Shown: positions 14,874 to 63,161 of the stretch, one piece after another
Layout: every line of letters begins with the position of its first letter
Numbering within the stretch: the first letter of the stretch is position 1
DNA from: Telopea speciosissima
Taxonomy: Eukaryota; Streptophyta; Magnoliopsida; Proteales; Proteaceae
Direction of reading: 5' to 3'
DNA: 64,000 nucleotides
Assembly (NCBI RefSeq): GCF_018873765.1
Contig: NC_057925.1
Coordinates: 57,114,970 to 57,178,969 of the forward strand
Position numbers and translations under genes: made by a program
Notes under the pieces: generated by a model
Told to the model about the DNA's origin: nothing
Seen by the model: the letters and a program-made list of their open reading frames with translations, nothing else
Databases searched by the model: none

Positions 14874-15237
14874 TTCCACCCCTCTTTTTATACAAATTTC
14901 ATGATAAAAGATAGGTTATATTATGGTCAAATGTTGGATGGAACAAAAGTTCCTTTCAAATATCATTAATACCCCTTAAGTCAATCACAAAGTCTACCCC
15001 CAAATTTTATTTAGGCTCTATTTCTTTCAACGTAAAATATTTTACTTGAAAATTTTTATTGCAAAAATTTTCACACATTGGAAAATAACACTTATTTGGA
15101 GCCAATTGGTTACCATGTATAAATTCACTTATTAACATATATTACAGGTCCGTAATATGTATGGTTTTTTTCTATTACCACATATTTCTTTGAAAGTTAA
15201 CACAGACTAATAATATGTTACATTATTGAAACAAGCC

Positions 15238-15425: not shown

Positions 15426-17073
15426 GAAAAAACAGAGTAAAATACAAAAAATTGTACCCCCACCCCCCTCTCTCTCTCTCTCTTTGCACTTTAAAATCTT
15501 TTCTATTTACCTTGGCTGTAGAGGTAATGAGGAGGAGGAGCACAATTTACACATGGTGTGTGCCTTTTTACGGAGCTATTGTTGATGGTAATTGGAAGCT
15601 AGAAAAGGATGAGAAGCTAGAATTGATTAAAAACAACATGAATAATCTTCTGATCATGGTCGCTGCGCGGGCAGGCTACAAAGTTGTGGTGAATTATCTT
15701 TACCCGATCACCCTACACCAATTAACAGAAGCCCATCAAAAGAAAGAAGCAGACCACAACAGTACTGGTGAACGTGAAAAAGTTAAAATTCTTATTGGAC
15801 TAATTTTTAGATGTCCGGGTGGGGTGAGGTCGTCATTTCCACCCTCCCTATGAGAGGAACCTACGAACTTAACCGGCAGGAACCTGAGAGGAGAAAATTT
15901 TCTAATTTTTAGTGAGATGTATGATAAGTAATGATCAATAGACTCCAAAATTCATCTTTCGAGTTTTAAAGTAACCACTTGAAAGAAAGTTGGCTTTTGT
16001 TATGTGCCTAATGGAGCTCACTCTAGAGTATGGGCATTAGATTGGGCTAGGATAGTATAGGATATGTATAAGTCTTGATTTAATGCGTTCCATTAGCTAT
16101 GGTGTTTTTTGGTGAATCCATCAAGTACATAACACTATCTCACTCAAAAAATTTATTTATTTATCTTTTGTAGGAATGTTTTTGATCATCTACAAAAATA
16201 CCCACGATTAGTCATTACCGTGGATAATATGAATTGGACACTACAAGTACTCTCAATGAGGCGTACTACATTTAAAAGTTCATTATCAACGAAAAATGTT
16301 GGGAACTTGGGATATTATTTCATCTACTCATGTAAGTGTTAGGGTTAGGGTTTTAAGGTACATTTCATATATGGCTGAAGGTAAATCAAAAAATAATAAG
16401 CATCATCATCAAGTTTCTTTACAAGAACTCGATCCTATAATCAAATTTGGAATGGTACACCATACTATGAAAGACATGTCATCAAATTTGGAATGACATA
16501 AAGACTAGCACAATACCATTGAAACATATCAGACATTTTCCATATTCCTTTGTGGAATAACAAAGTAAGGAGACTTCACATGAAAATTTGCTACCCCATC
16601 AAGTTTGGAATGGTTTCACAAACCCCCATACTTAGTAACCTAACTAAGTTATCTGAAACATAAACTGTCCCGAATGCTTACCAAGGCTAGATGAGATTCG
16701 AATAATTCAAAATAATATCGGGTTAGGTTAAGACCTGACTAAATGGTCTTTAACCCCATCTCCCCTGTAGTTTTGAATGTTCGATCCCATACCTTTTGCC
16801 ATGTGGGGACTAGACATCTTAGGCAACTTCACCGTAGCACCGGGAAACAAAAAATACCTGATCCAGTAAGTATTCTTTGTTATCGATCCCTTCTTTGGAC
16901 TCTACTGATCTAATCCAACCAAAGGGAACAACCGGAGCAGGGTTCCTACAAGCTTGTTGGGAAAATTTTAATTTCTATACATGATTATAGTCCATGCTTG
17001 CTTGATCGATGTAGCCAATCAGTCAGTTTACTGTTATAAACCAAAATTTTGGGGAATTTTGGGATTTTTAAAT

Positions 17074-18027
17074 GGGAAAATTACCAGATTAGGCAACATT
17101 GGGTTTTGATTTACAGATTTAACCACTCAATGTTTAGTTTAACGGAACTAGACAGATCCAGTCTGAGTATTACAAAAATAACCAAAATAGTACCCACCCT
17201 CACTGGCATATATTTATTTGACATTTTTATCCCTTTCCTCTTCCTCCCCTCGATCACACCATGACCGGCGGCCTCGCTCCTTCCCTTCGCTGTGAGCTCG
17301 CAACCCACTCTCTTCAAACCTCATTTCCTTCTCACCACTCTCTTCCCTGATTCCCTCCCATCGTCTATGCAATTAGAAGCATACAAGAATCTACCCCCTA
17401 ATTTGTCAAAATCAGAACTCCACCGCTGCTCCGGAATCCCCAACGATGGGGTGGGAACCTGAGGCCACCGACTGGTGGATAGTCCCCTGTTTTCATTCAA
17501 CTGGACAACAATATTTACCGTCTGAATATGGGGTTTGCGGGCAGACGAACTTGCCGTCTCCTTCTCCTGATAAAAATCTAGCAGGCAACACCTCTCTTCT
17601 CCTCGGACGACTTGCTATCTCCTTCTAACCTGCGGATTTGAAGAATAAGAAGAGTAAACTTAAAAAAGAAATGCAAACCCAGTAATGACTTGGACACCAG
17701 CGTCGTCTGAGGATGATGGCAGGGCGGCCGCTGCTCCCGAATCCGATATGCTCAACCACTTGTAAGCTTGTAGCGATTTCTCTGCCTACATTAATGACAT
17801 TTTCAGAGTCGCAGAGGATAATTTGCATTCCATCACCACCAGAAAATCTCGAACCAGCCGCAAAAACATTAGTTCTCCCATCTCGCATTTCTTTCCCGCT
17901 CCAAATTAGAGATCCAACGACAAACAATTCAGAACTGTCATCTATTATTCCTGCATAGAAACTATTGAAAACTCAAAAATCAGATCATGGGATCAATCTA
18001 ATTAGCCGCTTAGCTGTTCTTTCCATT

Positions 18028-18060
<33 letters not shown>

Positions 18061-18399
18061 CTCACCGACTCACGGATGTGGATCGTCTAGCAGAAATTGC
18101 TGCAGGGTTTTGGTGCGAGAAAAGCACTAGAAGAGGAGTTTCATTCAACAATAAAAATTAAATTTAGAAGTATGTGGGGGCGAGGGCAGGAGAGGGATGG
18201 GGCGTTGCAGAGTTGCGCGAGGTGATTTCAGGGAAGAGTGATCGTAGGAGGATGTGGAGGGTAGTTTGGGGGGTAAAAATGGTAAAATATATTTTGATGG
18301 AGTGAAGGTTACTATTTTGGCTAATTTTATAAATCCAAACAATGACTCGCTAGTTTAGTAAGAAAAAACTCAAATGTTGATAATGATGTAATTTTTCCT
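17074..18399. mobile_element. Mutator-like element with long TIRs and captured DNA, 1.33 kb
   Basis: The left end GGGAAAATTACCAGATTAGG and right end, ATGATGTAATTTTTCCT, are inverted over roughly 100 bp with mismatches. Flanking 9-bp repeats TTTTTAAAT at 17065-17073 and 18400-18408 are identical, as expected for Mutator. It sits in the intron between pseudogene exons at 16.3 and 19.1 kb. The interior is GC-richer, with a (GA)n run at 18031-18057. A minus-strand open frame (about 17930-17640) reads FVVGSLIWSGKEMRDGRTNV and continues to SSGRPAIIL; it may be a captured exon of a gene I do not recognise. Ends are related to the MITE at 29863. Confidence 0.75.
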
Positions 18400-19264
18400 T
18401 TTTTAAATAGTTTGTTTGGAGAGGTTATATCCAGGCAGGCCCTGGTTTTGCCACATGATCATAGGTTAAAAGATGGTGCATGCTGTATATCAAGTTTCAA
18501 TCCAGTTGGAGTTGGACAAGCAGCAAAACGAAATGTTGAAACTTAATAAATAAATATAAAAATAAAAACAAATCATATATAGTACAGTTGCCAAACTTTT
18601 TGGGATGCATGGACATGATAAATAAAAGGGTCTTTAATTAAATTGAAAATTTAACATATGATTAATCCAAACCATCCCTTAGATATCCATCTAACAAATA
18701 AGAATTACCACATCATTCTTCCATGTGGCAAAAATAGATGGGTTGCCAAGATAACCTCTCTAACTAAACTAGTCTGATCAAAGTTTGCTATTAGTTCACT
18801 TTCTAATTATTTATATTCCAAATGCGAAATTCCCCCAATTTGTATTAATATAGTTGGAGCAGTGCTAGATGTCCACGTCAATGGCAAAAATGCTTGTTTG
18901 AGCAAAAATCCCCCCCCTCCCCCCCTCTCTCTCTCATCAAGTTAACATCTCCACAAGTAAGGGTTCTATATGTGTCTATCTCTCTACTTGTAATTAAAGT
19001 TTATCTTCTATATATTCTTGTAAAGCCAACTAGGGTTCTCTCTATTGTGTAAGTGTATAATCTCTCGTTTCATTTCGATGCACGCAGGAAATATGATGAT
19101 GATGTGTAGGCTATATTGCACAAGAAGTACAAATTGCATTATTTTTGAGTTTTGTAAGGGTCTATGGTTTCATTTCCGTTGGCTATTTCAAAATGCATTT
19201 ATTAAATTAGGTGAGAAAATTGATGAGAATTGAATCACCCCTACCTATGATCATCACCTATCAT

Positions 19265-19468
19265 AATCATGGTTCGTGATCTCAGTATCGGTTGGATCGG
19301 ATCGGCCTACATGGATCGGGATCGCTCAAACTTGGGCAACTATGGCACTTTTGTCTCTATTTTTTTTATAAAAAAATATTTTTTTACATTTTTCAGCTGG
19401 ATTGGATCGGTATGATCCGGCCAAAATCAGCCAATCCGATCCGATACCTTTCAAACTATGATCATAAT
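19265..19468. mobile_element. Foldback repeat with CATGGTT / AACTATG ends and GATCGG words
   Basis: Left end ATCATGGTTCGTGATCTCAG then TATCGGTTGGATCGG; right end CCGATCCGATACC then TTTCAAACTATGATCAT. Related to the MITEs at 40528 and 56007. Located just after a pseudogene exon, in its intron. Confidence 0.5.
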
Positions 19469-21137
19469 AGTGTTACTTATTAATGCATCCTTATAATTAA
19501 AGTTCATCATCATCATGCATGAAAGTTAACTCTATAGCCCATCTACATACATGTATCAATTGGAAGTCGTGCCTGGTTGCAAGAACATCTATGAAGAGAA
19601 GTTGAAGCATTATGAAGCTTCTGGGCTACTAAAAGAACTATGGAGGCTAATATTAGAACTTGGTGATTATGATCTTGATCATGCTAAGTTTATGCTGGCT
19701 TCAGCAATGTTTAGAGCAACAGAGCATGGGATTATTGAATTTATTGAAGAGGCTATCAACAACTATCCTCAGCTTCTATTGATCTTGGAATCATATGAAA
19801 GCAAAACAGTATTTCATCACGCAATCATCAATCGCCAAGAAAAGATTTTCGGGCTTATTCATCATCTAGACCCATCAACGAGGAATCATCTTGCATAGAT
19901 AGATGATGAATAAGGAAACTACATGTCACATTTAGTTGCAAAAAAAGCACCTATTGAGAAGCTCAATCAAGTTCCTTGTGCAGCTCTCCAAATGCAACGT
20001 GAGTTACTATGGTTTAAGGTTGATCATCTTTCCTTGTTCCTTAATTTCCAACATGCAGAAAGCTTTTTTTTTTTTTTTCTTTTAATGGAGAAAGTTTTCC
20101 TTGATACACCCATAGACGATGGTTCACCCACTATCCTAGGACTCACAAACCCCTAAGTTGCAATTTTAGTCATCATGTGTGTGTCCGTTATAAATTTTGT
20201 ACTTTTTTTTTCTTCATTTTAGGAAGTGACAAGTGTTATGATTTCCAACTATGACTCATATCGAAACAACGGCGAGCAAACACCTAAAATATTATTCATG
20301 GAGGAGCATAAAGAGCTACTTAAAGAAGGAGCAGCATGGATGAGGAATACATCAATACAATGAATGGTGGTAGCAACACTAATCACCATGATTATGTTTG
20401 CAACAGTGTTTACCGTACCTAGTGCCAATAAGGAGAGTAGTAGTGATAATACGGGAGGAGAAGAACCCAATTACATACAACGCAGGTTTCCTATAATTTT
20501 TATCATATCAAATATATTAGCATTTTGCTCTTCGGTCGCTTCAATGTTGATGTTTCTAGCCATTATTATTTCACGATATGCAGAAGAAGACTTCTTCTCA
20601 ACTTTGCCTCGGATGTTGATATTGGGCCTCTTATTTCTCTTCGTTTCTATAGTGGGGATGATGATAGACTTTGTGGCAGCCATTTTATTTATGCTTTGCT
20701 TCGATATTTGTCTGTGGGTCTCCTTTCCAATTGTTTTTCTAGCACGTATCCCAATCACTATTTATGCTTTGGTGGAACTTCCCCTATTCTTTCAATTGTT
20801 GTTTACCACATCCTCGTCAAATATATTTGGGAAAGGAAATTAAATATGCATGCATGAATGGGTAGTAATAGTATTGTATCATTGTGTGTTGTAGAGAGAG
20901 TATTATTCAAAAGAAGTGCAATGTATTATCAAGTATAAAGTGTATTTTATTTGTCATACACATTTGAGTTTAATGTCTAGCATTAATTTATATACATCAT
21001 TAGTGGAATTTTAAATTGCTAAGAATATGAGTGATCGATTTAAATGTTTACTGCAATAATTTCTATCCGCTCTTTATTTTTTCTTGGTGGAAAAAAATTG
21101 AAGATATGCTTTTAGTAAGACCCTAAGGGGGGGACCT

Positions 21138-24620: not shown

Positions 24621-27600
24621 ATGGCAGGTGATAGACAAAATGACAGAATCCATGAAACCATCGGTACGTAGGAGTTGGTTTCTTTTTAGCTTTCTCATCT
24701 CTCCCTTACTTCTTTTTTTTACTTCTAAACTTATTACTTGAAGAATTAATATATGATTTAATTGGTTTCTTTATTCATATATTTTATAGGTATGGAAGGA
24801 CCACCGAAGGAAATTAATGTCTCATCAGTTACAAACGAAGTGCTAACAACCGATGATGAAGACAATATTCCTATTCTGACAGAAGAAAACTATATGAGTT
24901 GGAAAGAAAAGATGGAAAATTTGTTGAAAAAGAAAGGACTTTGGGATTATGTGGTTGGAGCAAAACGTGAACCTGAAAATACTTTCAGCCAAGAATATGA
25001 GGATTGGTTGCAGATAAAGAAAGAAATTGTATCATTATTCAGAAGAAAGTGTGGATCTGAGACACTACAAGATATTGAAAAGCTAGACATCACTGTACTT
25101 ATTTGGAGCCAATTGGTTAACATGTATGAGTCCACTCATCCAACAAAAGCCACAGGTAACTCTAATGCCTCTCTTTCTCTCTCTCTCTGTGGTATGTTCC
25201 AAAGGGTTTATAAAAATCGTGATCGGGGAATCTTCACGTACGTGAACGACTCACAGGAGAGAGTGCCCAAGATCTTATAAGTCTCCATACAAATTACTCA
25301 CATCTCACATTTGATGTGGGATTATTATTTTCGTCTTTCGCTTGAAATCCGCAAAAAAAAAAATTTCATTTTTTTCCCTTTTGTCAAAACAAATAAATAG
25401 GCCTATGTTATTGATGGCATGAGACAAAAGACCAGATACAACTCAAGGACTCATCTCCTTAAGTCCTAACTTGACTTTTACCCAAAAAAAAAAAGTCCTA
25501 ACTTGACCCAAATAAGGATGGGGACGAAAAGAAAATCGTCAACTACTTGAGAAGTATCTATTGGATCGGGCTCCTTTCTAGCAGGCATCCAACGTCTAGG
25601 CTGGTTAGATGTGTGCTGGCACACAGCCTGTGCATCCAGCCATTGGATTACTTACTGGGCACTACCGGGGTGTTGGGCTTGCTGGAGAAGAGCCGGATCC
25701 GATATATATTAGGGGCAGTTTTTAAATGGCTAACCCTGACTAATTACATGCGTCTGCCATTATGGTTGAGGTTAAGGAAAATAGCATCCCCCCCCCCTTT
25801 TTATTTTCCTTACCTTCTTATGTTTTGTCTGAGCTTAATTGTGTCATTTATTCCTCTCTTTCACCTAATTTGTCTTTTAAGTGAGTAACTTCTTGGCCCT
25901 TAGGTAGGGGTGTAAATGAATAGTTGAAATTTATTTCCGTATCTGTGTCCTTATCTGTTTAGCACTATTCGAATCCGTCGAAAAGTTAAACGGATGCGGA
26001 TACGGATAGGCTATAGCTATCCGAAAAGCTATATTTACATGTAAATGAATAACATATCCGATCCGTATCCGTGTCCATATTTGTTTAGCACTATCCGAAT
26101 ACGTCCGAAAACTAATCAGATGCGGATGTAGCACTATCCGAGCCGAATTCAATCCGTTTACATCCCTACCCTTAGGGGTTTCTGTACTTTCCATCCTCAT
26201 TAATAAAGGTCGCATGATACCTGTGCCCAGATATAGGACCTTGCAAAATTATCGTTCAGCCAACAGGGGACTTAAAATTCCTACTCTATCAAATGCTTTT
26301 ACACACCGTTGTTATTGGCCCCCTGTGTTAGTGCAGGCGTTACATGACTAGACATCGATCTCTTGCCCTGTATCTCTCCCTTCCCCTACAAACACACAAA
26401 AAAACAAAAGGAGCAAAACTTGAATATCTTTAGATCAATATTAATTCAAGACTACAATTACTATATTTTCTTGTTCATTTTAGTTCATCAAGAATATATA
26501 ATTGCTTTCTTTATACATAGGTATGGAAGGAGCGATGGAAACTAATGTCTTGTCAGTGACAGAAGCTCCTAATAATCCTATTTCTATGAAAAGTGAAGAG
26601 GCATCATCATCATCATCATTACAGGAGGAAAACATTACTACTTTGCCAATTTCTGTGGAAAGTGAAGTGCTAATGGACGTCGACATTCCTATTCTGACAG
26701 AAGAAAACTATTCAAGTTGGAAAGAAAATATGGAAAGAATCTTGAAGAAGAAAGGACTTTGGGATTATGTGGTTGGAGCAAAACATGAACCTGAAAATCC
26801 TTCCAGCAAAGAATATGCGAATTGGTTGAAGATAGACGAAAAAATTCAAATAATATTCAGTAAAAAGTGTGGAGCTAGGACACTGCCATATATTGCGTTG
26901 CAACACAGTTCACTTATTTGGAGGCAATTGGTTACCATGTATGAGTTCACTTACCCAGCAAACACAGGTAAAGTAATATGGTTTCTATCAATTATTTTGT
27001 TAGGTATCTGAGATCAAACCCTTTAGCCTAATCGTTATCCCCTCCAATTCGCTGCCTGCTCTAATTCCTTTAATTCCACACATAGGGGGGGGGAATGACC
27101 ACTCTACCCCCTGCCCGAACACACTGCCCAAGGTGGGATCCACTCCCCCTATTAAAGGAATTGGGAGCGGGCAGCAAATTGGAGGTGATAATTATTTCCC
27201 TTTAACCTATCTCATATTAGGTTCGCCCAATCTAACGTCCATAAACTAGAATGAGCCCAGTAGGCATATAACAGATCACCATGCTTCCGCAGTCGTCATC
27301 CTCGGCGGCTCTCGATCACTCTAGGAAACTTTTCCTCTGGTGGTAGGTAGCCTGGCCCTTTCTAAGCAGTTCCACTCTGCTCCAAGGTTTTTGTCTGGCC
27401 AACTGGTAGCTCTTTCTTGACGGCTTTCACTCAACTACTCCAGGTAGCCCTTTCCGTGACTCGAACCCGTGACGTGGTGCCCAGTTGATCTGATACCAAA
27501 TGTTAAGTACTTGACCGATACGCCAAAGACTCCAGAGCTGATGGAATGCGTTAAATCAAGCCTTTTAACCTATCTCAGACTAGGCTGGCCCAATCTAGCG

Positions 27601-30600
27601 TCCATACACTACAGTGAACCCCATTAGGCACATTACATAATATTCTTCGAAATTTATCAGTCCTTTAACTATAATCCATTGGCTAGTTGTAGGAAAAATG
27701 AAGAGGAAGAGCACAAATTACACATGGAGTTTGCCTTTTTACAAAGCTATTGTTGATGGTAATTGGAAGAGTGTCTCTGAGTTCCTCTCAAAAAATGAGG
27801 GAGTTCTTGCAGTCAGGCTCACATCATCAGGAGAACTCCCTCTTCATGTGGCAGTTCAAAATGGAAAGGTTAAAATTGCAAAGGAAATGCTAAAAAATAT
27901 GTCGGTAGAGGTTCTATCAAGACAAGAAAAAGATGGCAAAACAATCCTCCATATTGCTTCTGTAAGTGGGAACAAAGAGATCGTAAGGGCCATCGTTCAA
28001 AAGGATGCAAAACTAGTGATGATCAAAAGCCAATACTACAAAAATTGCATCCCAATCATCTACGCTGCCGCTGCAGGCAAAAAAGATGTGGTCAATTATC
28101 TTTACCCGATTACCATACACCAAGATGCAAAGAATCACAAGGAAGAAGACCACCACAATACTGGCGATGATGAACGTGAAACAACTAGAGCTGAAATTCT
28201 TGTTTCTCTAATTTTTGGTGATTTCTATGGTAAGTGAGTGATTAGGATCTAGATCCTTTATTTCTGAGCTGCCCCTACTTCTGAGTCTTCTATGCACCCC
28301 ACACATAGCAAGGCGGAAAAGACCGCCTTGCCCCTGCTCAGGCAAGGTGCTCGGGTAGGGGCAAGACGGTCTTTTCGCAACCTTGCTGTGTCTGGGGCGC
28401 ACAGATCCAGCTCGGGATAATTATTTATCCCTTATTTATATGTATTCATTTATTTTTATTTTTTTGTAGGGCAAGCTCTTCATCTACTAAGGACATACCC
28501 AAATTTAGTCTTGATCTACAATACTGGAGGGCTGACAGCCATTGGAGCACTCGCAATGAAGCCTACTGCATTTCAAAGTTCATTACCCAGTAAAAGAAGT
28601 GTTGGGACCTTGTTATATTACTTAATTTACTCATGTAAGTATTTTCTATCATCGATCCCTTCTTTTAGCTCCTTTAATTGCCTGTACTGTACCAAACAAA
28701 AAATTTGAGGAGTGGGATTCTTAAACTGGTCCTCCATCTGAAGGGGTTATCTAGAGTTCTAGACAGGCCTTTGTTTTGCCACATGGTGGGTTAGATTGGG
28801 GGTGGGGGGAGGGGGTCACCCAGATCCTCTCCAGTTCACCAGCCCCTACAGAACACATCTGACGGCTAGGAGCATCCAGGCACGCACGCATAGTGCCTTC
28901 AGCTGTCAGATGCTCGTTGGAGAGGATTTCTTTCCTAGATGGGGACTGTAATTTTGTGGATGGGTTCGGGAGTGTGGCCTACGCTAGCACTCCTATGTAT
29001 CTATCTGTCTCTCCTTAAAATAAAGATGCAAATCTGTCTTTTAGAGATAGACTCATGGGAGTTCGGACGTTGGTCACACTCAGCTCCCGGACAAAGTTCT
29101 TTTTTCCTTAGCATTTCCAGAAGAGAGAGGATAGTGAGAAAAGAGACCCCAACATTTGGGGAGGAAGAAGGAAGAAGAAGGAATCTCTTCACCCACTAGT
29201 TGTTATGAAAAGGTAAAATGGACATTTCATCTACACTTCTAAGGCCATGTCATCAGTTAACGTGCGATGGCTAACGGTCAGTTAGTTTAGTAGAGTTTTG
29301 AAACTACAGGGGTGCATTCGTTCACTTTTTGAAATCTTGGATTGATATCTATTTAATGCAAAGTACAGGATGTACACATCATTTTCCCCTTTTTATTTTT
29401 TTTAATCTCATAGATCTAAACAATTTCTTTTTTTAAAACATACTATGGGGACGAATCTCTTATATAGGGTACACTTTCTAATTAATCATATATTTTCAAA
29501 TGCAAAATTCCCTCTATATGTATTAATATATTTGGAGCAGTGCTAGATGTCCATGTGGATGCCAAAAATGCTTGTTATTGGTGCGAAAGAAGAGACTTGG
29601 AAAATTCCTTCGATGCCAACGGACACAGCACTCAAGGTTCTCTCTCTCTCTCTCTCTCTTCAGATTATGGATGCAGGAGATGGCCAAAATAAGCCTGCGT
29701 TAGGGCCTGAAACATGTAAACCCAATCCACACTACCAAAAAACATCTGCTTGTCATCCTTTCCAACAGAAGGCCTCAAATGAGCTTAAACTCAATTTGAA
29801 TTTCCTTACAATATTTGGAATTATTAATTTCCTAGGGTAGGAAACATGGATCCTTAATTTTAGGGAAAATTACATGATTAGTTACTTTTGGGTTTTTATT
29901 TATAAAACTGTCCACCCTATGTTTGAGTTAACAAAAATAGACAAAAACACTTTTAGTTTTACAAAATTAGACAAAACAGTGACTCTCCTTCCTTCCTTGG
30001 CAGTTCCCCTCTAAAAAAATCTCTTTTTTCCTCTGTTACTTGGGGTAGCAGAGAATGGCGGTAGATAGGACAAAGGTAGGGTTGCAGGGAATGGAGGATG
30101 CCTGAGCGAGAAGGCAATGACAGGGGTAAAAATGTCTAAAAAAGTAGGTGTGGGAGGGAGAGACACTATTTTGTCTAGTTTTGTAAACCTTAACTTGTTT
30201 TTGTCTATTTTTGTTAACTCAAACATAGGGTGGACAGTTTTGTAAATGAAAACACAAAAGTAGTTAATCATGTAATTTTCCCTTAATTTTATTCCCTCCA
30301 GATCCCTGCCCGGCACAGTTCCCCAATGCCCCTGACAAGGGGGGGTGCAATGACCACCCTATCCCTTTTCGAACACTTTGTCCGAATGGGGACCAACCCC
30401 CCTTATTAGAGGCATTGGGGAACTGAGCCAGCAAGGGAACTTGAGGAGATAATTTTCCAAGAAACATACAACTAGTCTTAAGTGGTTACTTTTGGGAAAA
30501 GCTAATTGTGGAACTTATACTAAAGCCCTACAAGGGTTTGTGAACCCTAAGATGGGTTGGTGAACGAACCTTCACTGGGCAGTGAAGAAAAACTTTCTCC

Positions 30601-31450
30601 AATAATATATACTAGCTAATAGGCTTTCCTAGCTAGTAATATCCCAATAATAACTTCACCAAAAAAATATATATATATCCCAATAATAACACATTTCATT
30701 ATGATGATGCAGGGAATATGATGATGTGTGGGCCATATTGCACAAGAAGTACAAAATGCATTTTTTTTCAGTTTTGTAAGGATCTATGGTTACGCTTCCG
30801 CAGGCTATTTCAGAATACACTTATTGAACTAGGTAAGAATTAATTGGTAAGAATCATGTTAGTGATGTGGCCATGTGGCTTCATCCCTATCCACAAAATA
30901 ATAGAGATAACTTGCTCTATATATTGTTTTCCAAAAGACTCTAAAATATAAAATGGATTAGGAGATAGAAAATAAGAAGAGAAGTCAAGAGCAATCACAG
31001 AGGAGCCCTTAAATTGCAAGGGTCTTTTGGAAGACAGTAGAGCCATGATAATAGAGCTATCGAAGTACCCAAATTGCATTTTTTTTTTTTTAAAGTTTTG
31101 TACGGGTCTATGGTTACGCTTCCGCAGGCTATTTCAGAGTGCACTTATTGAATTAGGTGAGAACATGGTTTTTGTGCACGGTATTGGAGCAGTTATCAAC
31201 AACACAAAAAACCAATACGATACTGGCCTGGTCGACTGTATCGGACAAAATTACCCTTTGATTTCCTTAAAAAATGAGTTTTCGGACCATTTTACCTCTT
31301 GTTCGTATCATGTTACCGATACGGTATCGGTGACTAGCAAAACTGGTACATATTGTCCGATACAAGCAATACGATACCGATACGTAGAACCATGGGTGAG
31401 AATTAATTGATGAGAATCATACCCCTCCCCCCCCCCCCCACACACACACA

Positions 31451-31487
<37 letters not shown>

Positions 31488-33026
31488 TAGCATATTAGAA
31501 TCACTCACTGCATCCTTATAAAGCTCATCATCATCATGAAACGTAACTCTTGCCTGGCTACATGTATACACTGGACGATATGATAGTGCCTGGTTGCAAG
31601 CAAATCTATGAAGAGAAGATGAAGCATTATGGTGCTTTTGAGCTACTAAAAGAAGCATGGAGGATAGTATCAGAAATTGATGACCTTGAGCCTGTGAAAA
31701 AAGAACTGGTTTTAGCAATGTTTCGAGCAACCGTGCATGGGATTGTTGAGTTTATTGAAGAGTGTATCAACAACTGTCCTCAGCTTCTATCACAATTGCG
31801 AATGACATCCGATCTTAGCCCAAATGAAGAAGGCCAAACAATATTTCATGCCGCAATCTGCTGCCGCCAAGAAAAGATTTTCCGGCTTATCCATCATCTA
31901 GGTCCAATGAAGGATGATTTTGTCTGGTTGAATGATAAATTGGGAAACTATATGCCACATCTAGCTGCTAAAAAAGCACCTATTGAGAGGCTCAATCAAG
32001 TTCCTGGTGCAGCTCTCCAAATGCAACGTGAGCTACTTTGGTATAAGGTACATATATATACCTCATTTTAATTCCTTCCTTCCTTAATTGCTTCTTCAAT
32101 TCCATGCATGCAAAGATTTTTCCTATTTTGGAATGTTGAGGAAACACCCTTATCCCCTAATTAACTTGCTTAGAATTTATGGGAAAATTATCTCTTGTGA
32201 TTCCCACCCAGTATAGTTATCTAGTGCCTCTAATAAGAGGGGGGTAGATCCCTATGAGAGGAATTGCAGGAACTGTACCTAGTATGGAACCGCAGGGGAT
32301 AAAGATCCGAATTTATGTGAGAGCAATTCTATGTCATCGTGAGTATATATTAATTTTAATACTTCCTCTTTAATTTTGTCTTCATTTTAGGAAGTGGAAA
32401 GCATTATGCCCCCTTTCTATGACTTATATCTAAACAAAAAAAATGAAAGACCAAGAATATTATTCACGAGGGAGCATGAAGTGCTAGTAAATGATGGAGC
32501 ATCATGGATGAAGGATACCGCAACACAATGCATGGTGGTAGCAACTTTAATAACTACGATTATGTTTGCAGCAGTGTTTACTGTACCAGGTCATGCAGGA
32601 GGAGGAGGAGGAGGAGGAGGAGGAGGAGAACCCAATAATTACATACAAGGCAAGTTTTCTATAGTTTTCGTCATATCAAATATATTAGCACTTTGCTCTT
32701 CGGTCGCTTCAATGTTGATGTTTCTAGCCATTATAACTTCACGATATGCGGAAGAAGACTTCTTGTCGACTTTGCCTCGGATGTTGATGCTGGGCCTTTT
32801 ATTTCTCTTCTTCTCTATAGTGGGGATGATGATAGCCTTTGTGGCAGCTATTTTATCTATGCTTCATCACGATGTTCGTCTATGGGCCTCCTTTCCAATT
32901 GTCTTTCTTGCAAGTATTCCAGTCACTATATATGCTTTGGTGGAACTTCCCTTATTCATACAACTAATGTTTAACACATCCTCGTCAGATGTATTCGGGA
33001 AGAGAAAATTAAAGAAGCATGCATGA
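24621..33026 (+). CDS. Gag-like (DUF4219-type) + ankyrin + PGG transmembrane protein, ACD6/ITN1-like, copy 2, intact
   Basis: Seven or eight coding exons with compatible phases: 24621-24663; A1 24790-25155 and/or A2 26521-26967; B 27693-28229; C 28470-28634; D 30713-30832; E 31587-32047; F 32391-33026 (TGA). Starting at ATG 26523 in A2, the sum is 2364 nt, 787 residues, without a stop. Residues about 55-150 read IPILTEENYSSWKENMERIL, KKGLWDYV, as in the N-terminal domain of Copia gag. Exon B holds ankyrin repeats (ELPLHVAVQNGKVKIAKEML; GKTILHIASVSGNKEIVRAI). Exon F holds the PGG-type region: CMVVATLITTIMFAAVFTVP, a run of ten glycines, then three more hydrophobic helices. Ankyrin-PGG proteins are plasma- or endomembrane proteins in immunity and salt/ABA signalling. 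The start is uncertain: 24621 gives MAGDRQNDRIHETIG joined in frame to A1 or A2. Either or both gag-like exons may be used. Confidence 0.8.
25905..26168. mobile_element. hAT-like MITE, 264 bp, with perfect 8-bp TSD
   Basis: TAGGGGTGTAAATG ... CGTTTACATCCCTA ends flanked by identical CCCTTAGG at 25897-25904 and 26169-26176. The interior is made of alternating CGGATACGGATAGG and CTATCCGAA words, so each half is itself partly self-complementary. It lies in the intron between the two gag-like exons. Confidence 0.85.
26998..27637 (-). mobile_element. TRIM-like miniature LTR retrotransposon (minus orientation) with nested MITE
   Basis: Terminal direct repeats: left 26998-27273 (plus-strand TGTTAGGTATC ... 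GGCATATAACA) and right 27501-27637 (TGTTAAGTACTT ... GGCACATTACA). They share TTTAACCTATCTCA and CCCAATCTA-CGTCCATA. Next to the right repeat the minus strand reads TTTGGTATCAGATC, a primer-binding site for initiator tRNA-Met (canonical TGGTATCAGAGC). The internal part is only about 227 bp and has no coding. The left repeat is longer because a MITE (about 27032-27200) is inserted. No target duplication recognised. It lies in the intron before exon B. Confidence 0.55.
27032..27200. mobile_element. Foldback MITE nested in the TRIM repeat
   Basis: The left arm TTATCCCCTCCAATTCGCTG ... CTAATTCCTTTAAT pairs with the right arm ATTAAAGGAATTGGGAGCGG ... AAATTGGAGGTGATAA. A related arm set occurs at about 30290-30465 (CCCCAATGCC / GGCATTGGGGAACTG) and, more diverged, at 32180-32310. 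Confidence 0.6.
28252..28418. mobile_element. Foldback MITE in intron B-C of the ankyrin gene
   Basis: Arms CATAGCAAGGCGGAAAAGAC/CGCCTTGCCCC and GGGGCAAGACGGTCTTTTCG/CAACCTTGCTGTG, with outer pairing GAGCTG.../...CCAGCTCGG. About 165 bp, non-coding. Confidence 0.55.
29863..30282. mobile_element. Mutator-like MITE, 420 bp, 9-bp TSD
   Basis: Ends GGGAAAATTACATGATTA and TAATCATGTAATTTTCCC are perfect inverses. Pairing extends inward about 130 bp (AAACTGTCCACCCTATGTTT / its complement). Flanks TTAATTTTA at 29854-29862 and 30283-30291 are identical 9-mers. No coding. Lies in intron C-D; same terminal family as the 17074-18399 element. Confidence 0.85.
30290..30465. mobile_element. Foldback MITE adjacent to the Mutator-like MITE
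   Basis: Arms with ATCCCTGCCCGGCACAGTTC / CCCCAATGCC and GGCATTGGGGAACTGAGCC / AGGGAACTTGAGGAG. It begins at the right TSD of the neighbouring element. About 175 bp. Confidence 0.5.
31050..31156 (+). pseudogene. Partial duplicate of ankyrin-gene exon D
   Basis: TTTTGTACGGGTCTATGGTT through GAATTAG with a GT donor at 31157 repeats the second half of exon D (TTTTGTAAGGATCTATGGTT ... GAACTAG). Translation KFCTGLWLRFRRLFQSALIE is open. It lacks the first half and the original acceptor. The AG at 31094-31095 would give a 61-nt exon entering in phase 0, which does not match the phase leaving exon C. Probably not used, or used only with exon skipping. Confidence 0.55.
31431..31488. repeat. C-run, (CA)n and (ATC)n compound microsatellite
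   Basis: A run of C, then CACACACACA, then about twelve ATC units, in the intron just before exon E. Confidence 0.85.
32598..32630 (+). repeat. Coding GGA microsatellite (polyglycine) in the PGG-protein loop
   Basis: About ten GGA/GGG codons encode a glycine run directly after the VFTVPGHAG end of the first membrane helix. Pseudogene copy 1 has a Ser/Asn-rich loop (ANKESSSDNTGGEEP) at the same place. The run is likely length-variable. Confidence 0.8.
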
Positions 33027-43026: not shown

Positions 43027-43130
43027 GGAGAGAAACAAGAGAAAATAAATAGAGGAATTTTTATCATAAAGATCATAAATAGAGGAACCTCAATCTTTGT
43101 TTCTCCGCTCTGTAGAGGCAAACCGACACC

Positions 43131-43976
43131 ATGGCAAACGAATGGGACGGAGAAGGATCAATCAAATACAGAAAGTCCGGCTACACAACCACCGCTCTCG
43201 GCGCCATCGACGCACGAGAGCGCCACAAGTTGGCCGAACGCGAGCGGCGCAAATCAATGCAAGAGCTCTTCCTCTCCCTCCACGCTCTCCTCCGACACTC
43301 CAAATCAGTCCGAAAGGAACAATCAGCAATCCTTGAAGAGATCATCAAGTACATACCTTTGGCTGTCGCTCGTCTCCGATCGCTCCAAAATAAGAAAGAC
43401 TCGCCTTCCTCTACTTCCTCCAAGGTATCGAAGTCCCCGGCGCCGCCTGTCCTGGCATCGAACCGTCACTCTGCTTCCTCTGACTCGTCGGAATTCGACA
43501 TCCGAGTCGCGGCTGAGACTTCGTCGTTTGTGTCGATTCGGATTAGAGGAGACCGAGTTAATGTGTCATTGACTCATACGAATCCCAAGGGGACTTCACA
43601 GGTTCTCCCACTCTCCGTCATAATAGATGAGCTTGAAGCTCATCACCTTGAGATTGTTCGTTCTACGCATTGCCGTGATGGGAGCAAGACACTCCATCAC
43701 ACCGATTGCAAGGTCTGCATTGATTGATTTATTTATTTTTTAAAATTTTTTTATCTGTGATTTAAATCTCTTTCGACCAATATATTTGGTACCCATTAAT
43801 TAATTTTTGGTTTGCTGAACTGGTTTAGTTTCATTTTATTGTTTTGGTTGCAGATTGGTGATGGGTTGGATAGATCTCCTCCTCTGTTAAAAGCTAGATT
43901 AGAGCAACTAGCCGGCAAACTTCTTTGCTTGAGGAAATCTTCTTCGTTGAAGAGAAATTTTGACCACCTGGACTGA
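43131..43976 (+). CDS. bHLH transcription factor, copy 1, complete, two exons
   Basis: Exons 43131-43712 (194 codons, donor GT at 43713) and 43854-43976 (TGA), phase 0, give 234 residues. The start is the ATG in ACCATGGCAA. Residues 27-88 are the bHLH: basic part ARERHKLAERERRKSMQELF with the E-box-contact set H32, E36, R40, then helix 2 AILEEIIKYIPLAVARLRSL. Residues about 120-180 resemble the ACT-like C-terminal fold of the bHLH36/118/126-type plant proteins (VSIRIRGDRVNVSL ... VLPLSVIIDELEAH). Nuclear, DNA-binding, probably dimeric. The end of helix 1 reads HALLRHS; most relatives and copy 2 have LLPH, so a conserved proline is lost here. Exon 2 encodes a Leu-rich tail. Subgroup assignment is tentative. 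Confidence 0.85.
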
Positions 43977-46569: not shown

Positions 46570-47050
46570 TGTTGGAATTTTTCAAAATATTGATGTGGAC
46601 TTTTAGTCCCACATCGGCTATGAAAGGAAAGCTCATTGGGTTTATATGTGTTAGTATAGGTAGTTATTATTATCACATGTAATGCTAGAAGAGATTGTAC
46701 GGTGCACTTGCGAGCGAGGACGGTACCCGTCCGAGCGCGTATGCCTGCGCGTGAACGTGCGCGTGCGTGAGGCGCAATGTGGCGCTTTGATGGCGCACTT
46801 TGCACTTCGCACGTGCGCATCATCGCAGTATGTCGCCTTAATCTTTTCGGGATCGACGGTGTCTGATCAAAGGGTGCTTAGGATCGATCCGACCTTTGGA
46901 TCGGTGGCTGAGCCTGATTTATCTTGGGAGGCAGGTTTGCTGCAACCCTTTGCAGGATTAGGAGGGTGCAAATACTGTCTTAAGGACAGAACGATTTCGT
47001 TCGACTCAGGCCTTCTTTCTGTCCTCTCCTTTTTGTTCAGATTTCTAACA
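46570..47050 (+). repeat. Left LTR of the Copia element (481 bp)
   Basis: Begins TGTTGG, ends CTAACA. It lacks about 250 bp found in the right LTR (about 51875-52125), including its TATA box. The junction is at CTGA microhomology, so this is a deletion in the left copy, which has probably lost its promoter. Confidence 0.9.
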
Positions 47051-47068
47051 ATCTTAAGACAGTATTTG
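46969..47068 (+). other. 16-bp inverted repeat spanning the LTR/primer-site junction
   Basis: CAAATACTGTCTTAAG at 46969-46984 (within the LTR) and its exact complement CTTAAGACAGTATTTG at 47053-47068 (two bases after the LTR end), spaced by 68 nt. The pair would extend by one G-U at each end in RNA. The second arm sits exactly where the primer-binding site should be. Confidence 0.85.
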
Positions 47069-47072
47069 TTCA

Positions 47073-50000
47073 ATGGAGGAGACTGCAATCATAAAGATAC
47101 CTTGGAATGAGATAAGCAAACTTGAGAAGTTTGATGGGTCATTTTTCAAACGTTGGAAAGGGAAGATGTATTTCTTCCTCACTGCTTTGAAACTTGCTCA
47201 TGTCCCGAACGAAGAGAAGCCGAGACCGACACCGATAGACACCACCGCTGAAGCTTCAAGTGGAGAGACACCGTGCGCATCTACGCGCTAGTGGGAGCAA
47301 GACGACTTCATGTGCAAGGGCTACATCCTCAATGGGTTATCAAACACACTTTATGATGTGTATGAGCCCAAATTTGCGAGCACGTCGAGAGAACTATGGG
47401 AGGATCTCGACAAAAAGTACAAAATTGAGGATGCTGGCAACAAGAAGTTTCTTATAAGTAAGTTGTTTGATTACAGGATGGTAGGAGATAAGTCTATTAT
47501 TTCACAAACCTATGAGTTGCAAGGTCTCATGAATCAAATCATCTCTGAGGGGCATTCTCTTGACGAATCTTTCCAAGTGTCATATATTATTTCAAAGTTA
47601 CCTTTTGCTTGGAAAGATTGTCGGAAAGAGTTGAAACAGAAGAAGGATGCAATGAATATGCAAGAGTTGATTAAGTATATCCAAGTTGAAGAGAATTCTC
47701 GCAAACTGGATAAACTTGAATTAGAGAAAAAATCTCCAAAGGCTCATGTCATAGAAAATGCATCTTCTAAGGGCAAGAAGAGAAAGTATGATGGGAAAGG
47801 CACTGTTTCTGAGAAGAAAAAGGGTACATTTATTAACCCCAAAGCGGCTTGCTGGAAATGCGAAAAAGCCGGTCATTTCAAGAAACAGTGCAGAGTTTAT
47901 ATCAAGGAGAAGCAACAAAAGGACCAAGCCAACATGGTTGACAATGATGACTGGGCTGCTATGATATCTGAGGTATATGCAGTGGGTGATGATGAGGAAT
48001 GGTGGATCGATTCCGGTGCAACCAAACATGTTGCCAAGAACAAAAATTTGTTCAAAGTTTATGACCCTATAGCAGATGGACAAGATCTCTTTATGGGAAA
48101 TTCTTCAACTGCTAAGGTCATAGGTAAAGGCACAGTGGTTCTGAATCTCACATCTGGGAAAAAGCTTACTTTGAATGATGTACTTCATGTTCCTAATATT
48201 AGGAAGAACTTAATGTCTGTAAGCTTGCTTGACAAACATGGATTTAAAATCCTGTTTGAGTCAGGGAACATCATAGTGTCCAAAGGGGGAGTTTATGTTG
48301 GGAAAGGATATGCATCGAACGGGATGTATAAATTTAATATGATTAATGAAAACTCATCTTCTGCTTACATTGTTTCTACTTTTGATACATGGCATTCTAG
48401 ACTTGGGCATGTTAATTATAAGTGCATGAGAAATATGGTTAAATTAGGTTTATTACCAGAATGCACATCTTCTAGTCATGACAAATGTTCGTATGCATCA
48501 AGTCTAAAATTGCTAGGAAATCTTTTAAGAAAGTAGAAAGGAATACACAACTCTTAGAATTAGTACATTCGATTTGTGTGAGTTAGAAGGTATTCTAACT
48601 AGAGGTGGTAAAAGATATTTCATCACATTTATAGATGATGCTCAAAATACACATATGTATATCTGTTAAGGACTAAAGATGAGGCTTTGGAGAAATTCAA
48701 AATCTACAAAGCCAAGTGAAAAACCAATTGGATCGTAAGATTAAAATCTTACGAACCGATAGGGAAGGGAATACTTCTCCACCGATGATTTTTGTGAACT
48801 TTATGGAATTATCCATCAAACAACGGCACCCTATAGTCCTCAACAGAATGGAGTAGCAGAAAGAAAAAATAGGACTCTAACAGAAATGGTGAATACACTT
48901 TTACTTACTTCTGACTTACCAAAGAATTTATGGGGGGAAGCATTAATGACTGCTTGTCATATAGTTAACCGTATACCCCATAAAAAGACTAGTATCACTC
49001 CCTATGAATATTGGATGAAGAGAAAACCTTCTCTTGGATATTTCAAAGTATGGGGATGTAGAGCATTGGTAAGATTAACTGATCCTAAAAGACCTAAATT
49101 AGGTGAAAAGGCAATTGAATATATTTTCATTGGCTATGCCCAACATAGCAAGGCCTATAGATTTCTAACGATGGAATCTACAGAAACCGTTAGCCAAAAT
49201 ATAATTTTGGAATCTAGAGATGCTGAGTTCTTTGAGGATTCATTCTCTAGGAAACGGAAGAATGAAAATACAAACAAGGAGGATCAAGATATTTGTTCAA
49301 TCAAATTCTGAGAATAATAAGAGTGTTGAACTTAGAAGAAGTAAAAGAGTTAGAGTGGAAAAATCCTTTGGTCCAGATTTCTATCAATTCTTGGTAGAAG
49401 GAAACAGAAATGAAGTTACATATTCTTGTGTGTATAATGTTGAACATGATCCATTGACTTTTCGAGAAGCCATGAATTCTCAGGATTCTGCTTTTTGGCA
49501 AGAAGCTATAAATGATGAAATGGATTCTCTCATGGGTAATAAAACATGGGTTTTAACAGATTTACCTCTTGGATTTAAATCTATTGATTGTAAGTGGATT
49601 TTTAAGCAAAAGCTTAAAGCTGATGGAACCATTGATAAGTTTAAAGCTAGGCTTGTAGCAAAGGGCTTTAAGTAAAAAGAAGGCATTGATTATTTCGATA
49701 CATATGCTCCTGTTGCTAGAATTAGTACAGTTAGATTGTTAATTGCTTTAGCATTGATTAATAAACTTGTTATACACCAAATGGATGTTAAAACTGCTTT
49801 TCTAAATGGAGATTTAGAAGAAGAAGTTTACATGGAACAACCTGAAGGGTTTGTTTTGAAAGGCCAGGAAAGTAAGGTTTGTAAACTGGTCAAATCTTTA
49901 TATGGTCTAAAACAAGCTCCTAAGCAATGGCATGATAAATTTGACCAAAAGGTTGTAGCAAATGGATTTAGAATAAATGAATCTGATAAATGTGTTTATT

Positions 50001-50992
50001 CTAAATTCAAGAATGGACATGGTGTTATAATATGTTTATATGTTGATGATATGTTAATCTTTGGTACTAATACAAGCACTGTTTTGGAGACAAAGGCTTT
50101 CCTATCTTCGTGTTTTGATATGAAAGATATGGGTGAAGCAAATATAATTTTGGGAATCAAAATTGTTAGATCCTCTGATTGTATTTCTTTAACACAGTCT
50201 CATTACATAAAGAAAATATTAAAGAAATTCAATCATGAGGACTGTAAACCAGTTGCTACCCCATATGATCATTCTATTAGATTACTTTCTAATGAATGAA
50301 ATTGTATTTCTCAATTGGAATACGCTAGTATCATTGGCAGCTTAATGTATGCCATGCAGTGCACTCGTCCTGATATAGCTTTTGCAGTTGGTGTTTTGAG
50401 TAGGTTTACTCATAACCCTGGACAAATTCATTGGAATGCAGTTTCTAGAGTACTTAAGTACTTAAAGGGCACAATGAATTATGCATTAAGTTATAAAGAT
50501 TTTCGCGCAGTACTAGAAGGATACACAGATGCTAATTGGATCACAGGATCCGATGAATCAAAGTCCACAAGTGGTTGGATATTTACCTTGGGTGGAGGAT
50601 CAATTTCTTGGGGATCCAAGAAACAGATGTAATTTCACATTCCACTATGGAGTCCAATTTATCGCTTAGCAATGACAAGAAGAAAGCGAGAATGGCTTAG
50701 GGACCTCTTAACAGAGATTCCTCTCGTGGCCTAAGCCAATACCGCTATATCAATATTTTGTGATAATGAAGCAACATTATCAAGGGCTTATAATAAAGTC
50801 TACAATGGAAAGTCAAGGCATATCAGTTTAAGACATAGCTATGTAAGAGAACAACTCATCAAAGGAGTTGTGACTATTACTTATGTAAAGTCAAAGGAAA
50901 ATTTGGCTGATCCCTTTACAAAAGGCCTGGGTAGGGATGTGGTATGGAAGACTTCCAGGGAGATGGGTTTAAAGCTTTTAAATGAGAGGTAA
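47073..50992 (+). pseudogene. Copia gag-pol polyprotein, inactivated
   Basis: Starts at ATG 47073. In order: gag (W-K-x-K-M motif, UBN2-like region); zinc knuckle CWKCEKAGHFKKQC near 47850; protease WWIDSGATKHV near 48000; the GAG-pre-integrase WHSRLGHVNYKCM near 48390; integrase core remnants about 48540-49000; RT with DVKTAFLNGDLEEEVYMEQP and the catalytic YVDDM at about 50039; RNase H to the TAA at 50990. Lesions: in-frame TAG at 47289, frameshifts around 48500-48880, breaks near 49311, TAA at 49673, TGA near 50297, TAA at 50630 and a further stop in RNase H. It cannot make its proteins. Confidence 0.92.
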
Positions 50993-51549
50993 CCTGCAAG
51001 TGGAAACCAACTAGACACTAGACCAACATCTAGTCAACTAGTTCAATGGAAAAACACTTGTAGTAATAACCGATTATGCACTCAACTAGTAGAGATAAGA
51101 TCTCTTGACATCTCAAGGTAGTGCATGTTTGTATGGAGAAACCGATAGAGGGTAGGATCAGTCCTTCAATGAGTCTATGCCTTATAGGAAATGCAAGTCA
51201 TACAATTGCATTTTATTAGATTCACCTATATAAGTGCAGGAAGTGGGGCCGCTTCTGCGAGATTCAAAGCTTGTCTCTAAGACACTTATGAAAACCTAAG
51301 ATGAAAGCACAAGGCCATAAATGTGCGGGTGTTATTGAAACTATGTTCAAGTAAGTCATACGTCTAGTATATTAGATTTGTCGCTATAAAATTCTAAGTT
51401 CAAGACTACGGCTACTTCGTTTTTGACAAGTACTAATGTATTTTGACAACATAAAGGTTCAAGTCGAAAGACACCTTTATGTAAGTATGATTTAGAAGTA
51501 CAGAGAGTTTATTGACTGAGGCTCAATTATTTTAAAAATTGGGAGAAAT

Positions 51550-52254
51550 TGTTGGAATTTTTCAAAATATTGATGTGGACTTTTAGTCCCACATCGGCTA
51601 TGAAAGGAAAGCTCATTGGGTTTATATGTGTTAGTAGTAAGTAGTTATTATTATCACATGTAATGCTAGAAGAGATTGTACGGTGCACTTGCGAGCGAGG
51701 ACGGTACCCGTCCGAGCGCGTATGCGTGCGCATGCGTGAGGGGCAATGTGGCGCTTTGATGGCGCACTTTGCACTTCGCACGTCGCAGTATGTCGTCTTA
51801 ATCTTTTTGGGATCGACGGTGTCTGATCAAAGGGTGCTTAGGATCGATCCGACCGTTGGATCGGTGGCTGATCAAAGAGGGAGTGCAACCCTTGGTTTAA
51901 CATTGACCCCAAGAGTTGCAGCCCACACGAACAACCAAGGGAGCCCAGCCCAATAGTCATGACCTGTCAGGTCAAGCCATATGAGCCAATGGGTGTGACC
52001 CATCCGAACAGGCCTTGTGGGCCTATAAATGGGCCACGAATTCTCTCATCCAGATGATCAAAAAAAATCTCTCGATAGCTTCATAGTGTTCTTGTCCCCG
52101 CAACCAGATACATCCTACTGATTTATCTTGGGAGACAGGTTTGCTACAACCCTTTGCAGGATTAGGAGGGTGCAAATACTATCTTAAGGACAGAACGATT
52201 TCGTTCGACTCAGGCCTTCTTTCTGTCCTCTCCTTTTTGTTCAGATTTCTAACA
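51550..52254 (+). repeat. Right LTR of the Copia element (705 bp)
   Basis: Longer, apparently ancestral form. TATA-like CCTATAAATGGG at about 52022 places a start near 52050. The arm corresponding to 46969-46984 is at 52173-52188, with one change (CAAATACTATCTTAAG). The repeat carries CpG-rich GCGTGCGCATGCGTG text near 51725. Confidence 0.9.
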
Positions 52255-52259
52255 AAATC

Positions 52260-62396: not shown

Positions 62397-62528
62397 GAAT
62401 GGGATTGGTCCAATTGGACAAAGAGAGAAAGAAGGGAAAATAAATAGAGGAACCTCAATCTCTGTTTCTCCGCTCTGTAGAGGCAAACTGAACTCTCTGA
62501 CTCTGTGAGCAAAGGACAATCCGAAACC

Positions 62529-63130
62529 ATGGCAATCGAGTGGAACGAATGGGACGTAGAAGAATCATTCAAATACAGCAAGTCCGGCGACACAACCACC
62601 GCTCTCGGCGCCATCGACGCACGAGAGCGCCACAAGTTGGCCGAGCGCGAGCGGCGCAAATCAATGCAAGACCTTTTCCTCTCCCTCCACGCTCTCCTCC
62701 CACACGCCAAATCAGTCCGAAAGGAACAATCAGCAATCCTTGAAGAGATCATCAAGTACATACCTTTGGCTGTCGCTCGTCTACGATCGCTCCAAAATAA
62801 GAAAGACTCGCCTTCCTCTACTTTCCCTAAGGTATCGAAGTCGCCGGCGCCGCCTGTCCAGGCATTGGACCGTCGCTCTGCTTCCTCTGACTCGTCGGAA
62901 TTCGACATCCAAGTAGCGGCTGAGGCGTCGTCGTGTGTGTCGATTCGGATTAGAGGAGACGGAGTTAATGTGTCATTGACTCATACGAATCCCAAGGGAA
63001 CTTCACAGGTTCTCCCACTCTCCGTCATAATAGATGAGCTTGAAGCTCATCACCTTGAGATTGTTCGTTCTACACATTGCCGTGATGGGAGCAAGACACT
63101 CCATGACACCGATTGCAAGGTCTGCATTGA

Positions 63131-63161
<31 letters not shown>

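Follow-up and report, generated by a model that had tools for sequence, protein, structure and literature searches.

A doubled gag-like exon, apparently under diversifying selection, in a predicted ankyrin-PGG gene of Telopea speciosissima

The stretch of Telopea speciosissima DNA analyzed here (64,000 nucleotides; contig NC_057925.1 of NCBI RefSeq assembly GCF_018873765.1, positions 57,114,970 to 57,178,969 of the forward strand; hereafter the window) contains a gene, G9, predicted to encode ankyrin repeats followed by a PGG transmembrane domain and preceded by two copies, A1 and A2, of an exon that resembles the front part of a copia-type retroelement gag. Our data show that this locus is a real and old variant of a known plant fusion, and that it is probably evolving adaptively. 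The ankyrin-DUF4219 fusion itself is already published (PMC12062965); new here are the recurrent doubling of the gag-like exon and its apparently adaptive evolution within an immune-type array.

Gene model and tandem array

The predicted G9 gene is complete, with nine exons and up to 956 amino acids (aa), its downstream exons having been traced through paralogs (Table 1). E1 (taken to start at its ATG), A1, A2 and B showed AG/GT borders at the positions where a preliminary description of the window, made from its letters alone, had placed them. That description also proposed that A1, A2, both or neither could be spliced in frame, and all four combinations (skip, A1, A2 and A1+A2) indeed gave products of 685, 807, 834 and 956 aa, respectively, with no internal stops and reaching the natural stop codon. 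In the 956 aa model, whose exon joins are predicted, Ank_2 matched at E 3.5e-17 and PGG at 2.8e-21 (residues 783-900, after the ankyrin repeats), and in exon D the Ank_2 match was weak (E 0.038), under the Pfam cut-off. The symmetric phases to which the preliminary description drew attention were right for A1 and A2 but are not special to them, because every intron from E1 to D, seven in all, is in phase 1, with phase 0 at the D-P intron alone; symmetric phase is therefore common to A, B, C, M1 and M2, and exon doubling is permitted throughout the gene without A being singled out. A partial second copy of M2 about 0.3 kb downstream of M2 represents a second exon duplication within G9, and blastn found no such copy in the other genes searched.

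Table 1. Positions of the exons of gene G9 and of related features in the window
Feature	Position	Strand	Description and evidence
E1	24621..24663	+	First exon of the model, 43 nt (14 codons + 1 nt), beginning at its ATG; splice and frame check
A1	24790..25155	+	Gag-like exon copy 1, 366 nt, own ATG at 24792; Pfam profile matches; sister to G7a (97/94)
A2	26521..26967	+	Gag-like exon copy 2, 447 nt, own ATG at 26523; Pfam profile matches
B	27693..28229	+	Ankyrin exon, 537 nt; Ank_2 8.3e-15 in the E1-A1-B product; splice and frame
C	28470..28634	+	Exon, phase 1-1; tblastn across the array; splice and frame
M1	29541..29636	+	Short exon, phase 1-1; block conserved in paralogs; splice and frame
M2	30713..30832	+	Short exon, phase 1-1; block conserved in paralogs; splice and frame
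M2 partial second copy	31062..31163	+	Outside the gene model; blastn, 84% DNA identity
D	31587..32047	+	Divergent ankyrin-like repeats, leaves in phase 0; array conservation; splice and frame
P	32391..33026	+	PGG transmembrane exon, ends at the stop codon; PGG 1.7e-22; frame
G8 gag-like exon remnant	15077..15149	+	Best E 8e-14 as DNA, 1.2e-5 by protein profile
G8 pseudogene	15494..20834	+	Exons B, C, D and PGG with gaps and stops; tblastn, integrity table

Outside G9, a match to E1 was found in gene G7 only (81% DNA identity, 1.1 kb upstream of A, two clusters searched), and this exon may be a leader rather than coding. An ATG lies 2 bases past the acceptor in 10 of the 12 aligned open A copies, at 4 bases in G3, and the acceptor is lost in G2. 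Since the ATG adjoins the acceptor in most copies, A probably supplies the start codon and the exon before it is mostly leader, in which case A1 and A2 could act as alternative first coding exons, serial inclusion being possible as well. The phase-1 entry of A is relevant only with translation starting in E1, or with A1 spliced ahead of A2. The intron between A1 and A2 also carries a 66-base direct repeat (25936-26127, 126 bases from start to start, 83% identity), possibly from a transposable element.

According to tblastn, G9 is one member of a tandem array on C10 (57.016 to 57.148 Mb) that comprises nine ankyrin-PGG genes or remnants, named G1-G9, in which G8 is the window pseudogene. Two A exons or traces of them are present in five of the 12 genes G1-G9 and H1-H3 (the latter from a second cluster, described below): both copies are open in G6 and G9, the first is broken in G4, the second is broken in G7, and in H3 the first is a fragment. 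A single A exon is present in G1, G2, G3, G5, H1 and H2, and G8 keeps only a remnant. This remnant had been noticed at 15.1 kb in the preliminary description, and our searches recovered it (Table 1), which supports the proposal made there that the fusion predates the array. When exons B, C, D and P were checked for coverage and stops, six genes proved to have open bodies (G1, G2, G3, G4, G6 and G9), and none of these six lacks an open A exon; M1 and M2 gave only weak matches in G1, and in G6 no M1 was found. The second cluster (H0-H3; C9, 39.592-39.682 Mb) has broken bodies in H1, H2 and H3, yet one open A exon in each, and H0 consists, in the stretch examined, of a PGG exon alone. In G7, the opening part of the first gag-like exon, together with an acceptor-like TATAG and the ATG, is tripled in tandem (L018:35-215), so that several 3' splice sites or starts may be available.

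Gag-like identity and known relatives

The relation to gag and DUF4219 that had been proposed for the A exons was recovered by profile searches. A1 matched DUF4219 (E 5e-8, 32.9 bits), Retrotran_gag_2 (1.5e-7, 31.5 bits) and Retrotran_gag_3 (2.6e-6), all above the Pfam cut-offs, which are 27 bits for both DUF4219 and Retrotran_gag_2. A2, which is 61% identical to A1, matched DUF4219 (7.6e-9, 35.5 bits) and Retrotran_gag_3 (7.9e-7) above cut-off, and Retrotran_gag_2 below it (23.7 bits). The Retrotran_gag_2 match is confined to positions 1-80 of the 172 in the model, its front part. A genome-wide protein search in which 150 of 889 candidates were scored, so that counts are lower bounds, gave at least 67 matches to A, and C8, C9 and C10 hold the 18 best, all of them array-type copies. 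On C1, C4 and C6, too, A-like copies occur, each within about 4 to 16 kb upstream of a PGG exon, an arrangement shared by the C8 and C9 copies; the C1 copy was scored at 6.5e-12 by the curated Retrotran_gag_2 model. Of the weaker matches, most were 21-33% identical, and some lie inside long open frames of up to 554 aa that are probably Copia gags. PGG matches numbered 135 in this genome versus 0 in 14 control genomes. A sequence search of the PDB returned a single match, at E 0.9.

A Copia copy lies in the same window at about 46.6-52.3 kb (46570-52255). It keeps both long terminal repeats (LTRs), whose pieces are 93-100% alike, and this identity suggests a fairly recent insertion, though the coding region is broken: its gag frame has an in-frame TAG at 47289, with the next stop there at 48534, and the later pieces are in other frames. 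Owing to these stops and frame changes the element is not intact, contrary to what the preliminary description had stated. The link drawn there between the A exons and this element was not borne out either, and we set aside the derivation of A from it, because the copy is broken and a profile of 20 A exons gave no significant match to the start of its gag (E 0.4).

The ankyrin-DUF4219 combination (IPR036770 plus IPR025314) has been counted among the top five retroelement or virus domain fusions, with 362 proteins, all from Streptophyta and probably of one origin (PMC12062965). Like these proteins as described in the section on the fusion, G9 joins a retroelement-associated DUF4219, above cut-off, to ankyrin repeats downstream in the predicted protein, in a plant host; that section gives the fusion without a function, and to what it describes the G9 locus adds the exon doubling, the tandem array and the codon selection tests (PMC12062965). 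The scenario of a host gene that took up a gag domain and then doubled the exon stands as regards the gag-ankyrin-PGG fusion and the doubled exon, but the fusion is that of a published plant family and not a local event.

No paper on duplicated phase 1 exons in plant ankyrin genes came up in a literature search. Outside plants, Dscam offers duplicated alternative tandem exons of matching phase; phase-matched duplicated exons are found in both, but G9 has two copies only, and any regulated or mutually exclusive splicing of these would be conjectural. Mouse Fv1, a gag-derived restriction factor, is a host gene with a gag-derived domain under diversifying selection. In G9 the domain is instead copia-type, comprises no more than the front of gag and is joined to an ankyrin membrane protein, and any antiviral likeness is by analogy. 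Among plant relatives, the PGG-ankyrins include ACD6 and IGN1 (PMC6508770), and Lr14a, an ankyrin-transmembrane (ANK-TM) gene, confers race-specific rust resistance (PMC7878491). All three are described as having, like G9, ankyrin repeats and then a transmembrane part at the C-terminus, which in G9 is the PGG domain. Lr14a is described with ankyrins and transmembrane helices, and G9 differs in that a doubled gag-like domain comes first.

Selection on the A exon and history of its doubling

We analyzed selection and neutral drift on a set of 16 rows and 94 codons made of copies picked as open. The set excludes the broken copies G4a and G7b, the G8 remnant, the upstream fragment of H3, the open but distant copies on C1 and C6, and the broken one on C4. 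Codon models were fitted with a purpose-written script, with recombination outside the model. On this A core, M0 gave an omega of 0.97 and M8 was favored over M8a (twice the log-likelihood difference 22.1, p 2.6e-6), with a positive class of 33% of codons (23-47% in subsets) at omega 2.1, and M2a placed about 31% of codons at omega 0.26. Null simulations of the M8a/M8 comparison on the A set exceeded 3.84 in 2 of 24 cases, the largest value being 4.24. The M1a/M2a test was set aside, since its statistic passed 5.99 in 5 of 24 null simulations and reached 48 in one; this fit being unreliable, the case for selection rests on M8a/M8. The same comparison gave p 1.6e-4 for the eight A copies from the six open-body genes (0.0026 without G6), and 6e-6 and 0.0019 for the two halves of the exon.

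Omega was also estimated pairwise by NG86. Between A1 and A2, its value, a check that the preliminary description had called for, was 1.9 for the cores and 1.27 for the whole exons, and the median over 91 core pairs was 0.95, with a wide spread (e.g., 0.35 for G5-H1 and 0.46 for G9b-G4b). Medians per exon were 1.03 for A, 0.91 for B, 1.37 for C, 0.66 for D and 0.43 for PGG, those of B and C including copies from broken genes. Furthermore, neutral drift on the same tree (2000 simulations from each of three starts) left a mean of about one of the 16 copies open, with a maximum of 6, versus the 16 observed, which argues that the open A frames are not luck. For individual exons this argument is weaker: the probability of being open under neutrality was 0.019 for A2 on its branch and 0.08 for A1 with its stem. 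These results suggest that the A exons are apparently under diversifying selection, which they have in common with the ankyrin and PGG exons.

The history of the doubling was examined with a tree of 22 A exons and 352 columns, in which 9 of the 19 inner branches were unresolved. A1 grouped with the first copy of G7 (support 97/94), G6b with H3 (100/100), and G6a joined the G6b/H3 pair at 99/98. Pairing the two copies of the same gene gave p values in the approximately unbiased test (p-AU) of 0.032 for G9a+G9b, 0.028 for G7a+G7b and 0.0006 for G6a+G6b alone, the last being rejected because H3 is nested. A2 as a fresh duplicate of A1, one reading of the final step of the scenario in the preliminary description, is thus disfavored, weakly, as twelve groupings were considered overall, one needing no test, and p-AU values near 0.03 carry little weight among so many.

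H3 has, at a distance of 0.8 kb on the upstream side of its open copy, a degraded first copy that shares 96% identity with G6a over 120 bases and also retains its 3' end; this fragment together with the G6b/H3 grouping indicates that the doubling in G6/H3 predates the duplication of these genes. A single ancestral type of first copy (G9a, G7a, G4a and G6a together) was rejected (p 0.011). With G6a excluded from the other first copies, the tree implies that at least two independent doublings of A probably occurred in the array, unless gene conversion acted, which could mimic a separate doubling in G6/H3. The tree of gene bodies (12 rows, built from B, D and PGG together) united G7 with G2 (100/99) and rejected G7 with G9 (p-AU 0.00026), and a grouping of G9b, G7b and G2 was compatible with the A tree (p 0.30). 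Either the A pair would be older than the split of G2, G7 and G9, with the front copy lost in G2, or gene fronts would have been exchanged by unequal crossing-over.

Interpretation and alternatives

We favor, with a probability of roughly 0.6, the reading that G9 encodes a predicted ankyrin-PGG membrane protein bearing at its N-terminus an old copia-type gag front that has been doubled, kept open and is diversifying. The gag front would be encoded by one exon carrying its own start codon, and the resulting domain would lie N-terminal, facing the cytosol like the ankyrin repeats, and could act as a module for binding or self-assembly within an ACD6-like immune membrane protein. It may diversify with the rest of the protein because both contact something that changes, such as a pathogen, a self partner or a mobile element. 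Doubling of A would be tolerated because the flanking introns are in phase 1, and it would supply two diverged N-terminal modules, used singly (each from its own ATG) or in series; on the predicted gene structure we consider single and serial use about equally probable.

Several points weigh against this reading. The exon joins of G9 are predicted from sequence, and an immune role is suggested by analogy; in the part of the aspen study considered here, PGG-ankyrins were the sole family of the set that was not over-represented in the response to a fungal pathogen (PMC6508770). The gag likeness fades within the array, since the paralog exons G6a and G6b fall under every Pfam gag cut-off (DUF4219 24.2 and 16.6 bits), and as to a capsid fold, the structure model is poor (pLDDT, the predicted local distance difference test score, 59.7), a fold search of the PDB with it giving six matches, none under E 0.001 and the best at 2.5. 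With regard to selection, removal of all G6 and H3 copies lowered the A signal (M8a/M8 p 0.0023, M1a/M2a 0.059), and the null simulations cover the 16-row A set only. An M8a/M8 signal was also found in B (1e-12), C (2.8e-6), D (1.4e-12) and PGG (4.5e-8), stronger in B and D than in A, using copies without stops or large gaps (7, 7, 7 and 8 rows, respectively). This signal across all tested exons suggests that the whole protein is diversifying and that A is part of this process and not its centre. In addition, recombination between paralogs can inflate codon tests that are blind to it. That A1 is open is unsurprising by itself (P 0.53 on its own branch), and G5, G7, H1, H2 and H3 have broken bodies yet an open A exon, so that an open A exon is no sign of a working gene.

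The alternative closest to this reading concerns the use of the two copies, A1 and A2 being spliced in series as ordinary constitutive exons that give two gag-like domains in tandem and no choice of module. We regard this as a serious candidate, somewhat short of an even chance: the splice sites are canonical, the serial product has no internal stop, and the five second copies (G4b, G6b, G7b, G9b and H3) have the two bases between acceptor and ATG that serial reading requires, but the same two bases are found in four of the six single-copy genes and hence do not discriminate, and G4 has a dead first copy with its other main exons open. The double exon may also be a by-product of unequal crossing-over that joined the E1-A1 front of one gene to the A2-to-PGG part of another, leaving one copy redundant and on its way out. 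This is plausible, if rather doubtful, given that A1 is sister to G7a and E1 is found in G7 and G9 only, yet the bodies of these genes are not sisters, and that one of two A copies is dead in G4 and G7 and fragmentary in H3. Against it stand the two open copies in both G9 and G6 and the pair carried double through the G6/H3 gene duplication, and an ancestral double with loss in G2 fits the grouping of A2, G7b and G2 as well.

Two further alternatives question the nature of the exon itself. That its gag resemblance is no more than that, with Copia and the plant gene sharing a third source or Copia having taken the domain from its host, would agree with the lack of a significant match between the A profile and the window Copia gag, with the match to the front of the gag model only and with the low scores of G6a and G6b; the curated gag model scores of the C1 copy and A1 argue otherwise, and we consider this explanation unlikely. 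It is more improbable still that the A exons are decaying, non-functional remnants under no selection. The mean omega near 1 and the open A exons in some of the broken genes would be expected of such remnants, but neutral drift leaves so few copies open, nearly a third of the codons are constrained under M2a, and all six genes with open main exons have an open A. A more specific possibility within the favored reading is that the doubled gag-like domain forms a diversifying recognition surface, like an integrated decoy or Fv1, which would bind retroelement or pararetrovirus coat proteins or effectors, with repeated doubling supplying alternative N-terminal detectors; we consider this speculative and improbable. 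With a gag-like part that is kept open, apparently evolves adaptively with the rest of the protein and has been doubled, probably more than once, the array allows this part to be tested for a working role in an immune-type membrane protein. It also offers within one genome a natural series of single, double and one-copy-dead states with which to probe the role of the domain.

Lastly, two very similar open frames elsewhere in the window (43116-43727 and 62481-63158), 19 kb apart, are apparently another duplicate, and they contain the bHLH-like motif DARERHKLAERERRKSM.

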